A stretch of 64,000 nucleotides of DNA. Source: Paraniabella ginsengisoli (lineage in GTDB: Bacteria > Bacteroidota > Bacteroidia > Chitinophagales > Chitinophagaceae). Shown in pieces: positions 26,596-48,480 of the stretch. Made by a program: the position numbers and the translations under genes. Location: NCBI RefSeq assembly GCF_022513635.1, contig NZ_JAKWBL010000004.1, positions 496,001 to 560,000 on the forward strand, written 5' to 3'. The notes under the pieces were generated by a model. That model was not told the DNA's origin. It searched no databases and saw only the letters and a list, made by a program, of their open reading frames with translations. How positions within the stretch are numbered: position 1 is the first letter of the stretch; each line of letters begins with the position of its first letter.

Positions 26596-26715
26596 ATCAT
26601 CGAAATTGCGTCGCACACTTGATCTGCAGAATATAGCTCATCCCGTCCGACCGGTCATCCGGGCGGGCTACATAAACGGACTTTCAGACTTTCCGTCTTC
26701 CCGACTTCTCTTTCA
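26596..26715. repeat. Cluster of dispersed repeats (families C, B and G)
   Basis: Family C copy aaattgcgtcgcacacttga (26604-26623), family B palindrome cccgtccgaccggtcatccg (from 26642), then gactttccgtcttcccgact (about 26685-26706), which resembles the array inserted in the NadR-like gene. This fills the gap before mtgA. Confidence 0.65.
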
Positions 26716-26789
26716 AACCATATGCACATCATCACATTAGCTAATTGGCTAATTTCTCTCTCGTTCAACTTTTCCATATATTGCAACCA

Positions 26790-27484
26790 ATGAAGCGACT
26801 TAGAAGAATATGGAGATTCATAAAACGAACGATCATCGTTCTTTTTATTGCACACCTCCTATATATCGTAGCTTTAAAATGGGTAAACCCACCAATAACC
26901 GTAACACAGCTTATGAGTTTTGTTGAAGGACATGGCATGGAAAAGGAATATGTAAGATGCAGCAAATGTCTTCCAATGCAAAGCTAGCAGTGATTGCATC
27001 TGAAGATCAACTTTTCCCCGATCACAATGGCTTTGACTGGAAAAGCATTCAAAAGGCATTGGATTATAACCAGCGCAAGCCGGGCCGTATCCGCGGAGGA
27101 AGTACCATTAGCCAGCAAACAGCAAAAAATGTTTTTTTGTGGCAGGGGCGTAGTTGGGTAAGAAAAGGACTGGAAACCTATTTTACTTTTATGATCGAAA
27201 AGATATGGGGCAAGAAAAGAATTCTTGAAGTGTACCTGAATGTTGCAGAAACGGGTAAAGGCATATTTGGTATCGAAAAAGCTGCTCAAAAATATTTTGG
27301 CAGATCAGCTCAAAAATTATCTCAACTTCAGGCTGCCGCAATAGCTGCATCTTTACCCAACCCAAAGAAGTATACAGTAAAACCAATGAGTCCTTATGTA
27401 TCTGCAAGAAGCAGAAAAATTATGCAGCAAATGAATTTTTTAAGACCCGATAGAGATATACAGGCTATTATCGGCGACAAGTAA
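26790..27484 (+). CDS. mtgA: Monofunctional peptidoglycan glycosyltransferase MtgA (one frameshift)
   Basis: GT51 enzyme polymerising lipid II into glycan strands at the inner membrane. Starts [19 protein letters not shown] with one N-terminal membrane anchor. After a one-base loss near 26955 the frame continues into the catalytic domain: [18 protein letters not shown] (catalytic Glu), [17 protein letters not shown], and [19 protein letters not shown]. Corrected length is 231 residues, typical for MtgA, and there is no transpeptidase domain. Confidence 0.92.
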
Positions 27485-28010: not shown

Positions 28011-28072
28011 TCAGGCTGAGTTTGTCGAACCTCAGCCAACTTCCCTTTGACAAACTCAGGGTGAAAATCTAC
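28011..28072. repeat. Dispersed inverted repeat family F
   Basis: Arms gctgagtttgtcgaacctca and ctttgacaaactcagggtga. A related copy with agcttgccgaa/ttcggcaagctt is at 41546-41615. It lies between convergent genes, where it could act as a bidirectional terminator. Confidence 0.65.
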
Positions 28073-28085
28073 ATGAAACAAAACA

Positions 28086-28565
28086 CTAAGCAAAACGGTT
28101 ATGTAATACTTCATAACGAAAGGAAAATATTTCCTTTAACTTTTTAGCTACCATTTTTCCGGCAAACGATCTTCCTAAAAATCCTGCTGGTAGCTTATAA
28201 CTCACTATATCCGTCATCAACACGCCGTTATTCTTGTTCTCGAAATGATGCTCATGATGCCATAAAGTATAAGGGCCATTACGTTGCTCATCAATAAAAT
28301 ATTGGAGCATTGCAATCTGTGTTATTTCAGTAACCCATTTACTTTTTATTACAGGGAAGATACTGATGGTATAAGTGATTATTTTCCCGGGATAGATTTT
28401 TCCATCTGCTCCTGAAGTAATTTCAAATCCCATATTGTTGGGAGTAATGGCTTGTAAATTTTCGGGTGTTCCAAAAAAATCCCAGGCTGTCTGTAAATCA
28501 CAATTTAGTTGCTGCTTTGCCTCCAGTGTGTAAATTCCGGAATGATATGTTATTTTAATGTTCAT
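28086..28565 (-). CDS. SRPBCC family protein
   Basis: 159 residues with the START/SRPBCC pattern: helix-grip opening (LNCDLQTAWDFFGTPENLQ), LQYFIDEQRNGPYTLWHHEH, and a C-terminal long helix (FAGKMVAKKLKEIFSFR). It is like the CoxG/ligand-binding SRPBCC proteins frequent in Bacteroidota. Its start overlaps the end of the NadR-like gene by 11 bases. Ligand unknown. Confidence 0.8.
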   Translation of the reverse strand: MNIKITYHSGIYTLEAKQQLNCDLQTAWDFFGTPENLQAITPNNMGFEITSGADGKIYPGKIITYTISIFPVIKSKWVTEITQIAMLQYFIDEQRNGPYTLWHHEHHFENKNNGVLMTDIVSYKLPAGFLGRSFAGKMVAKKLKEIFSFRYEVLHNRFA

Positions 28566-29190
28566 TTAGAAATTGTTCTGTAGCAGCTATTGCCATTTGC
28601 AGCCTTTGCTCGTTATTACCTTTTATTTCTACCCAGGGGGTCGATTGATTTATTAAAAGATCTTTATACATTTTAAATAAAGTTTCCCTTGTCTCAAAGT
28701 CGGGATATTCGCGCAGTTCATCTTTCGTCCATGGAAGGTCGGTATTACAAAGCAAATACAGATCATATTTACGGGTTACTATTTCATCAAGTATAAATTG
28801 GTGGCATCGACCAAAAACAAATTCACACCATACTTTCATTACATACATGTCGGTGTCGAGGAAGACGGGAAGTTGGGAAGTTGGATAATCGGATAGTCCG
28901 GAAGTCTGGAAGTCTGGAAGTTTGGAGGAAGTATTCACACTACCTGAGTCTTTCTTTCCGTCTTTCCGTCTTCCGGTCTTCCTGACTCTTTCAATAAATG
29001 TCTCCTCCAAATTCAACTGCCCTTTTGCTATTTCGGCTAAATCTTCAAACGTATAGTTCGTTCCATTTTTTAACAGGTATTCCCGCGCATATTCGGGGCA
29101 CCAAACCGTACCGTAATGCTGCGCCAGTTGCTCGCAAAGCGTACTCTTTCCGGTACTTTCAGGCCCTATTATTACAATCTTCTTAATCAT
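28555..29190 (-). CDS. NadR-like ATP-binding protein / nicotinamide riboside kinase, with embedded repeat
   Basis: 211 residues. P-loop GPESTGKSTLCEQLAQHYG, then CPEYAREYL, FLDTDMYVMKVWCEFVFG and LYLLCNTDLPWTKDELREYP are the hallmarks of the NadR kinase domain that phosphorylates nicotinamide riboside. It starts 8 bases inside the end of pnuC, the nicotinamide riboside/NMN transporter, so the two form an NAD-salvage pair. Residues ~67-109 (RKTGRRKDGKKDSGS..., QTSGLSDYPTSQLP) are low-complexity and encoded by a dispersed repeat. Relatives go straight from the GQLNLEE helix to the DTDMYV strand. Confidence 0.88.
   Translation of the reverse strand: MIKKIVIIGPESTGKSTLCEQLAQHYGTVWCPEYAREYLLKNGTNYTFEDLAEIAKGQLNLEETFIERVRKTGRRKDGKKDSGSVNTSSKLPDFQTSGLSDYPTSQLPVFLDTDMYVMKVWCEFVFGRCHQFILDEIVTRKYDLYLLCNTDLPWTKDELREYPDFETRETLFKMYKDLLINQSTPWVEIKGNNEQRLQMAIAATEQFLNEH
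28862..28990 (-). repeat. Family G repeat embedded in NadR-like coding sequence
   Basis: Direct-repeat-rich DNA: ggaagtctggaagtctggaa and gggaagttgggaagttgg on one side, tttccgtctttccgtcttcc on the other, able to pair with each other. A shorter related piece is intergenic at 26685-26706. It stays in frame through about 43 codons. Confidence 0.7.
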
Positions 29191-29852
29191 TCTTCAAAAG
29201 TTCTTGTTGTTTCCTGGCTCTTTGTTGCCATTCAATTAAGCCACCAACGGCCAGGATGAGCAAGATAAAATAATAAACACTTGTAAACACCAGTCCTTTT
29301 ACAAAATACAATGGCATACCGCATATATTGGTAATGATCCACCAGTACCAGCTTTCTACTTTCTTTTTGGCCATAAGCCACATGCCCGTGAATGCACTTG
29401 CAGAAGCTAATGCATCAGCCCACGGAATGGCACCCGGCGCAAAAGCCTGTTTTAAATAGCTTAAAGCAAAAAAGATGCTGACATAAAAAAATCCGAAAAA
29501 GAGTAATTCCTGTATCCATTCACGGCGAGTAGAAAATTTTATACTTAGCAAAACCTGTTGTTGATTGTCTTTCCTCGTCCATAAATACCATCCATAAATA
29601 TTCATGATAGTATAATAGAAATTTACGGTTGCCTCGCCAAACAGATGATATTTAAAGCTAAGCCAAATGTAGATAGCGGTATTGATTAAACCTGTTGGAT
29701 ATACCCAGATATGCTCTTTTTGCTGTACCAAACACTGGCAATACCGGCCAATACCGCAATGTATTCGGGTAGCGTTGTGGCCTTAATACCATTAATAAAC
29801 TGATCAAAAATTTCTTGTAGAGGCAACAGGATGTTTTTCCAAAAATATACAT
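29183..29852 (-). CDS. pnuC: Nicotinamide riboside transporter PnuC (two frameshifts)
   Basis: Inner-membrane facilitator for nicotinamide riboside or mononucleotide. From the ATG at 29852, a T5 run near 29840 and an A5 run near 29722 each need one more base. The protein then reads IKATTLPEYIAVLAGIASVW, EHIWVYPTGLINTAIYIWL, NFYYTIMNIYGWYLW and WWIITNICGMPLYFVKGLVF, about 223 residues with seven or so spans. The WxxxxxxN/YPxGL patterns are typical of PnuC. Overlaps the downstream kinase gene. Confidence 0.9.
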
Positions 29853-29904: not shown

Positions 29905-29939
29905 ACTCCTTCTCCTTTGGAGAGGGTTGGGGAGAGGCT
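29905..29939 (+). repeat. Dispersed repeat family A
   Basis: actccttctcctttggagag followed by ggttggggagagg, abutting the nifU-like stop codon. Same family as 10509 and 14470. Confidence 0.65.
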
Positions 29940-30536
29940 TTATTCTGCTTCAGCAACTACTTCCTTCACTTCCGGAATCATACGTTTCATCATACCTTCA
30001 ATACCGGCTTTTAAAGTGATCATTGACGACGGGCATCCGCTACAACTTCCCTGCATCATCAGGTTTACAACACCATCGTTATAACTCTTGAACTGTATAG
30101 CCCCGCCATCCATTTCAACTGCAGGTTTTACATAGTTTTCTAATAGTTCTTTGATGCGTTTTACCACATCATCATCATCAGCCAACACTTCATTAGAACT
30201 TTCTTTCTTTACCTCAACAATCTCGTCTTCGTTAATTACGGATTTTCCTTCTTCCAAGTAATCTTTCAAAAACTGGCGAATAGAAGGTGTTACATCCATC
30301 CATTCTGCATCTGGGGTTTTTGTAAGTGTCACAAAGTTACTTGCAATGAAGACCGCCTTAATAAACGGAAAACCAAATAGTTCTGTTGCCAGCGGCGAGG
30401 GTTTTGCGCTTTGCGCATCGGGAAAATCAACACTTTTTCCCGGGTATAAAAGCTTGTTAGCCACAAACTTCATCGTTTCCGGGTTGGGTGTCATTTCGGT
30501 ATATATGCTAATAACGGGACTTCCTGTTTTGATCAT
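29940..30536 (-). CDS. NifU-family iron-sulfur cluster scaffold/carrier (NfuA/Nfu1-like)
   Basis: 198 residues. The N-terminal Nfu domain begins ISIYTEMTPNPETMKFVANK, with LFGFPFIKAVFIASNFVTLT. The C-terminal NifU domain has the cluster-binding CSGCPSS in LMMQGSCSGCPSSMITLK. An acidic linker (VKKESSNEVLADDDDV) joins them. It delivers Fe-S clusters to target proteins. Confidence 0.93.
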   Translation of the reverse strand: MIKTGSPVISIYTEMTPNPETMKFVANKLLYPGKSVDFPDAQSAKPSPLATELFGFPFIKAVFIASNFVTLTKTPDAEWMDVTPSIRQFLKDYLEEGKSVINEDEIVEVKKESSNEVLADDDDVVKRIKELLENYVKPAVEMDGGAIQFKSYNDGVVNLMMQGSCSGCPSSMITLKAGIEGMMKRMIPEVKEVVAEAE

Positions 30537-48224: not shown

Positions 48225-48480
48225 AAAACGTGGCTGAGCACGTTCTGCAATCCGTTTACCACGTTGCACAACGGGGTGAACCACGTTCCGCAATCCGCTG
48301 ACCCCGTTGTACAACGGGGTAAACCACGTTCGGTATTCCATTTACCACGTCGTATAACGTGGTTGACCAGGTTTAGCAGCCCGTTAATGGGGTTATACAA
48401 CGTGGTAAACGTAGTAAAAGACGTGGTGAACCACGTGAAATACCCCAATAATGCAGTGAAAGACGTGGTGAGCCCCGATT
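48225..48480. repeat. Tandem array of ~21-bp degenerate units (accacgttgnacaacgnggt)
   Basis: Seven to nine units of 20-22 bases, each starting near gttc/gttg and ending accac or acccc: gttgcacaacggggtgaacc, gttgtacaacggggtaaacc, gttctgcaatccgtttacca, gtcgtataacgtggttgacc and others. Alternate units pair as inverted repeats (acgtggt/accacgt). Reading frames cross it on both strands but none looks like a protein family. It separates cdsA from the restriction-modification operon. Confidence 0.75.

Follow-up and report, generated by a model that had tools for sequence, protein, structure and literature searches.

Rickettsia palindromic elements (RPEs) were reportedly treated by Ogata in 2000, and the STRR repeats of cyanobacteria are short-unit tandem repeats. 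In the accessible part of one account, RPEs are palindromic, have a length of about 150 bp and a conserved peptide each, and lie in frame in protein genes of Rickettsia (PMC10969869). Direct repeats of the heptamer TAACTGA are described, in the accessible text of another paper, from Beggiatoaceae, Cyanobacteria and five Bacteroidetes; these arrays are mostly intergenic and sometimes lie in ORFs, mainly at the periphery or the ends of the protein (PMC4679880). ERIC/RU and other small mobile sequences with units of 103–168 bp are fused to enterobacterial ORFs at 24 annotated loci, as given in the accessible part of the report (Delihas, 2007; PMC2759123). Going by the accessible text of two of these sources, the in-frame capture of repeats has so far been described mainly from Rickettsia and from some enterobacterial fusions (PMC10969869; PMC2759123). 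Among the titles and abstract openings of the top matches listed in literature searches, none reported arrays of the kind described below at these linkers or in Chitinophagaceae proteins, which does not imply absence.

The window, i.e. the whole 64 kb stretch of DNA that was analysed and to which all coordinates refer unless another locus is named, contains a NadR-like gene of the ribosylnicotinamide-kinase type (AAA_28) on the minus strand at 28555–29190 (ORF of 211 amino acids, open throughout). The ORF matched PF13521 (AAA_28) with an E value of 3.4e-30; NadR models from NCBIfam matched it as well, yet below the curated cutoffs of NCBI. The P-loop GPESTGKST and the DTD motif that mark the NadR type were invariant columns in an alignment of 32 kinase sequences, and the best Foldseek matches of the predicted fold were the NadR entries 8x7f and 1lw7. 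By its motifs and its modelled fold, the host protein is predicted to be a NadR-type ribosylnicotinamide kinase. The adjoining gene (29183–29731, minus strand) encodes an NMN transporter of the PnuC family (PF04973, E value 5.1e-44).

The kinase gene carries repeat DNA between two conserved motifs, as the initial annotation had proposed, and this DNA is read in frame without correction. The linker between GQLNLEE and FLDTDM, read from the DNA, spans 138 nt or 46 codons (28864–29001, minus strand), and a period-8 array with an inverted arm occupies 28860–28990. One tandem arm lies on the plus strand at 28860–28936 and consists of a degenerate 8-bp unit, GGAAGTCN (Tandem Repeats Finder and pattern matches; the end at 28936 was read by eye); on the coding strand it is the C-rich arm and reads ...SKLPDFQTSGLSDYPTSQLP. 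Tandem Repeats Finder reported 28860–28926 with a period of 8, the consensus GGAAGTCT and a score of 53. The inverted tandem arm, with the unit GGAAGACG/GGAAAGAC, lies on the minus strand at 28946–28990 (repeat-pair search, with minus-strand pattern matches at 28960–28982); it is the G-rich arm of the coding strand, where it reads VRKTGRRKDGKKDSG. The repeat search gave 28860–28880 and 28954–28974 as an inverted pair. The direct and inverted repeats noted earlier are present, but their layout is that of two arms, G-rich and then C-rich on either strand and separated by a short loop, rather than that of a plain repeat.

The tandem score of the linker, 27, was reached by none of 507 segments of the same length from the same 8 kb and by none of 300 shuffles. 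With one mismatch, GGAAGNCNGGAAGNC matched the window seven times against 0.10 expected; with up to three mismatches, GGAAGTCNGGAAGTC matched it ten times against 2.35 expected, and all ten matches fell within 26679–26709 or 28860–28982. The former interval is an intergenic relative of the array (minus strand; repeat search and pattern matches), the existence of which had been noted before at 26685–26706, coordinates that are corrected here; one repeat family groups 26673–26708 with 28946–28989. Over 26679–26709, no stop-to-stop frame reaches 80 codons. Its neighbours are what we take to be an ORF for a LysE-type transporter on one side and a split transglycosylase gene on the other. The latter (26745–27484), presumably monofunctional transglycosylase-like, is made up of two overlapping frames, 26745–26987 and 26957–27484, which suggest an indel in this assembly.

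The array shares with RPEs, as these appear in the accessible text, its dispersed repeats with intergenic copies and in-frame copies in unrelated housekeeping genes. It differs from them in its 7–8-bp units, in a varying array length, in a peptide that is set by the unit and in its host, a member of the Bacteroidota; furthermore, the family that occupies a given linker site varies from genome to genome. The array in the window is not an RPE; it works like RPEs but is a different element. Head-to-tail units of 7 or 8 bp in many genomic places are common to these arrays and to those of the TAACTGA and STRR type, and no TAACTGA array was among the arrays listed for 78 kinase linkers. In contrast to the TAACTGA type, the arrays described here often have two inverted arms, lie in internal linkers of conserved enzymes and recur at orthologous sites, and one segment looks domesticated. 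The ERIC/RU fusions resemble them in that intergenic repeat DNA is read as part of a protein, and differ in that the accessible text on those fusions contains no repeated use of the same orthologous site. MITEs are recognized by the terminal inverted repeats of a parent transposon together with a target-site duplication; the arrays here have inverted arms.

The DNA of 17 genomes of the same genus, including that of the window, was used to read the linker that joins GQLxLEx to F(I/L)DTDM. This linker measured exactly 42 nt (14 codons) in nine of them. Three linkers contained the GGAAGTC family (138 nt in the window, 114 nt in G045 and 99 nt in G035), and that of G046 (72 nt) contained a different 7-bp array, CATCCGG; the remaining four (72, 66, 54 and 36 nt) had no array at the 0.01 level. 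The compact linker is probably ancestral in the genus, in the tree of which three of 14 inner branches are well supported. Relative to the 42-nt linker, the window has a net gain of 96 nt or 32 codons, and the size of about 43 codons given initially for the repeat segment was too large by this measure.

For a wider comparison, kinase relatives of the Chitinophagaceae type were fetched as the best 80 of 380 matches; together with the window, 78 linkers were parsed (L062, L097 and L109 were left out of the counts as their linkers were not parsed). This set contains at least six linkers (L031, L032, L033, L081, L083 and L103) that are letter-identical to linkers among the 17 of the genus, so that the two sets overlap and are not independent. 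Arrays were scored by a local tandem score at periods 6–9, and a linker was considered to contain a significant array if it exceeded more than 99% of the same-length segments of its own locus and more than 99% of 300 shuffles. The 78 linkers were 36 to 162 nt long. Significant arrays were found in 24 of them, with a best period of 7 or 8 in every case; the other 54, some of them long, had no array at this level, which answers only in part the earlier question of whether distant homologues contain the same insert without repeats. The units vary between genomes and include GGAAGTCN, GGTCAAT/GGTGAAT, AATTACG, AAGTACG, AATTCCC, GTTGACA, ACGAGAA, CGAACAA, GTCAGGA, CGTCATT and ACTGTAA, among others.

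A kinase tree was built without the linker columns; 43 of its 75 inner branches were weak. The presence or absence of an array changed state 16 times on this tree, at least four of these changes being forced by well-supported branches, and the changes include decay, so that 16 is not a count of insertions. The array label was clustered on the tree (a mean of 20.7 changes on shuffling, with four of 500 shuffles as low as 16); as the changes also mix gains with decays, the number of independent arrivals is uncertain. The supported clade of L069, L075 and L090 contains three units, two of which (those of L069 and L075) are one base apart.

The units were also sought elsewhere in the genomes. With one mismatch, GGAAGNCNGGAAG was found at 140 places in the 4.5-Mb genome of the window, compared with 57 for the reversed control. 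A survey of 20 stretches of 5 kb around such matches and of the window itself gave 18 clusters with at least two matches; five stretches gave none. L127, a single unit, was left out of the array counts. Three of the 17 arrays surveyed lie inside conserved proteins (the kinase, MutS and IspG), one lies in the N-terminal part of an agmatine-deiminase-like frame (PF04371) and one supplies the final residues of an aldo-keto reductase, while the other 12 lie between genes, before a likely start codon (L123 and L125) or over short frames. Five short frames over arrays were scanned and gave no Pfam family. Among the fetched loci, the G-rich arm came first in 12 of 13 distinct two-armed clusters, seven of them in kinase or IspG genes; the exception was L053.

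Pattern counts over 24 genomes were made with one mismatch allowed and with the kinase copies included. GGTCAATGGTCAATGG was found at 98 places (five for the reversed control) and was present in 17 of the 24 genomes, and GGAAGTCNGGAAGTC at 199 places (18 for the reversed control). The genome of the window had 17 places for GGAAGTCNGGAAGTC, two of them in the kinase, against one for the reversed control; in the three genomes with clear kinase copies, that of the window among them, the counts were 17, 47 and 50 (two of the 17 and five of the 50 in the kinase). G006, G014 and G018 each had 15 to 25 GGAAGTC places even though their kinases carry other units, and G002 (L033), the kinase copy of which is degraded, had two, one of them in the kinase. 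CGAACAACGAACAACG was found at 18 places in the genome of L086, the kinase of which carries this unit (two places at the kinase linker), and at zero to two places in each of the other 23 genomes; its reversed control gave a total of 14 places over the 24 genomes and none in that of L086. For AATTACG, enrichment in its own genome was not found: AATTACGAATTACGAA had three places in the genome of L075, of which two coincide with the kinase linker, while in G019, the kinase of which carries another unit, it had 27. Of 119 genomes drawn evenly from the class, 31 contained the GGTCAAT pattern, at 69 places versus eight for the control; the genome of the window had the highest count (18) and the three other genomes of the same family in this draw had no GGTCAAT pair. 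Several of the units are dispersed families.

Neither 7 nor 8 is divisible by 3, so that all three frames of such an array encode the same cyclic peptide of 7 or 8 residues, and a unit that lacks TAA, TAG and TGA leaves every frame of its strand open. Of eight GGAAGTC-type units tested, seven were open on both strands and GGAAGTCA had a stop on one of them; the open direction is forward for GGTCAAT and backward for GGTGAAT. In coding copies, of which L064 is an example, the first arm is made up of GGTCAAT-type units and the second of CACC-type units (ATTCACC). Over both strands, 18 array intervals from the genome of the window, the ends of which were partly set by hand and from which the loops were left out, contained 27 stops per 901 bp, compared with 58 in 500 shuffles (standard deviation 5.5, lowest value 43). 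Stop avoidance acts as a filter and is not a mechanism of movement.

Orthologues of MutS and IspG were sought in 30 genomes, 23 of which (G000 included) have array-bearing kinases, so that the following fractions do not reflect frequencies in the population. In ten of 26 loci, the linker that precedes the C-terminal QLSIF-type motif of MutS contained a significant 7- or 8-bp array (the MutS paralogues L157–L160 were left out), and the IspG linker after VKRY did so in ten of 23 with coding segments as the control. With all segments of the locus as the control, the IspG counts were four of 19 by both tests and eight of 19 against shuffles alone; the low count of four is probably owing to further arrays in some of the loci. 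L161, L177, L184, L186, L188, L189 and L190, the linkers of which were not parsed, were left out of the IspG counts, and G000's own IspG is among those left out because its frame is broken. One genome, G004, has an 8-bp GGAAGTC array in the kinase (L036) and a 7-bp CAGTCGG array in IspG (L178). The peptides of the MutS array linkers (L131–L156) show mainly the G-rich, hydrophilic arm, and those of the kinase and IspG linkers often show both arms. As a bolder conjecture, the MutS array might serve as a reversible mutator switch, since the gain or loss of a unit would change the reading frame. In this assembly, the IspG frame of the window's genome (L112, 2182–3470) has an interruption close to its array, and 25 of the 29 other fetched IspG loci have an open frame of at least 660 codons; as the assembly breaks other genes too, the interruption was not read as biology.

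An AlphaFold model of the window protein (32 sequences) had pLDDT values of 66, 47 and 52 for residues 71–80, 81–90 and 91–100, and 15 of its 22 ten-residue blocks had values of 93 or more. The insert is predicted to be a flexible loop of low confidence on a confident core. We consider it likely that the segment in the window is a copy of a dispersed two-armed 8-bp array that came to lie in a tolerant linker at the protein surface, where it is translated into a flexible loop, and that arrays of this kind have repeatedly entered linkers of conserved proteins. The earlier proposal of a repeat turned into protein gains support from the dispersed unit family, from the compact linker in nine of the 17 same-genus kinases and from the predicted loop; it had concerned a single case, to which similar ones can now be added from this site of the kinase in other genomes and from two more genes. 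In outline, many genomes of the Chitinophagaceae type carry array families of 7- or 8-bp units, a dispersed copy of which would arrive by insertion in a tolerant linker, the tolerance presumably being the reason for the insertion site. Copies would persist if the sense strand is free of stops and the frame is kept, and the insert would be translated in the cell. Their later fates may be mutational decay, loss, replacement or, possibly by way of decay, a conserved protein segment. Against insertion, neither an insertion junction nor a recent insertion was seen. The uneven enrichment also counts against it, with few places elsewhere for the kinase units of L075 and G002, 15 to 25 GGAAGTC places in G006, G014 and G018 despite other units in their kinases, and no GGTCAAT pair in the three other genomes of the family in the even draw.

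Alternatively, the arrays may have grown in place by replication slippage in a length-tolerant loop, their likeness to intergenic arrays reflecting a shared slippage bias. The tolerance of the linker is clear from its range of 36 to 162 nt, the unit of L075 is hardly present elsewhere in its own genome, sister linkers differ in array state, and the one-base difference between the units of L069 and L075 within one clade also fits this origin. Simple slippage, however, does not make two inverted arms of the fixed polarity found in 12 of 13 cases, some of the units match families that are dispersed in the same genome, and growth within a gene should favour multiples of three, whereas the best period was 7 or 8 in all 24 arrays. 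Slippage is an unlikely origin for the arrays as such, although locally it could have made or enlarged some of them.

Under the insertion of dispersed copies, one segment appears to have gone further. A 99-nt linker is common to 13 kinases, all of which fall in a single well-supported clade; this clade has 28 rows and includes other linkers as well. W10, P31 and L33 are invariant in this class, and pN was lower than pS in all 78 pairs (mean 0.34 versus 0.75, with pS near saturation and the pairs not independent); the flanks of the linker are under stronger constraint (pN/pS of 0.14, versus 0.46 for the linker itself). In four of the 13 (L054, L093, L094 and L095), a significant 7-bp array is still present at the DNA level. 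In an AlphaFold model of L094 (27 sequences), residues 71–100 had pLDDT values of 85–92, with strands at 74–77, 80–83 and 88–90. We infer that the 13 linkers represent one old array at different stages of decay, and sequence and model together suggest that this segment is an array that has turned into a conserved part of the enzyme. Somewhat more speculatively, the stop-free and frame-neutral 7/8-bp arrays of the Chitinophagaceae may be a lasting reservoir for new protein segments that repeatedly seeds the linkers of housekeeping enzymes, at least one such seed (the 33-residue QWS..V...WVNPHSL of a Sediminibacterium-like group) now being conserved and folded within the kinase. Relatives have other repeats at this position and in two more housekeeping genes, so that junk-like repeats seem to give rise to protein segments again and again. 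With different families in the same linkers of different genomes, arrival, decay and domestication become comparable across species, and the origin of protein from noncoding DNA can be put to a direct test in a group that has cultured representatives.

The inverted arms can pair, and the array might act at the level of DNA or RNA, as an mRNA hairpin, in recombination or in the regulation of NAD salvage, with the peptide as a by-product. Only six of 200 shuffles folded as well as the segment as single-stranded DNA and only seven of 200 as RNA, and heptamer arrays before start codons in Beggiatoaceae are proposed to be regulatory in the accessible text on these repeats (PMC4679880). With z values of −2.0 for DNA and −1.8 for RNA, however, the fold beats the shuffles only modestly, 54 of the 78 kinase linkers do without a significant array, the peptides of the array-bearing MutS linkers represent mainly the G-rich arm and the conserved protein sequence of the 13-member class favours the peptide, all of which makes such a role very improbable. 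Structured RNA was rejected as the main explanation given these weak z values. A search of the window against Rfam at gathering thresholds gave no RNA family at the insert; the sole match, elsewhere, was a cobalamin riboswitch (RF00174, 2629–2839, minus strand, 108.5 bits). An assembly or sequencing artefact can practically be dismissed: the assembly of the window does contain broken genes (the split transglycosylase-like gene and the IspG frame) and a MutS open frame of 527 codons compared with 873 to 1000 in 22 of 25 others, but the kinase frame is intact and arrays at the same site occur in many separate assemblies, including a complete Niabella chromosome (L033).

Repeats of other kinds were observed in the window. 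An inverted repeat at 28011–28064 (TCAGGCTGAGTTTGTCGAA / TTTGACAAACTCAGGGTGA) is another kind of palindrome, the core of which, TTTGTCGAACCTCAG, occurs once in the window with up to three mismatches; the gene before it is presumably thioredoxin-like. A palindrome-like sequence, CTCCTTCTCCTTTGGAGAGGGTTGGGGAGAGG, lies between genes at 29905–29940; a C-run/G-run motif may also occur in the IspG linker of the same genome (L112), where it reads SPLPPKGG. A tandem repeat at 48239–48331 has a period of 43 with 2.2 copies, 88% matches and a 22-bp sub-period, and two short ORFs (111 and 142 amino acids) lie over it.
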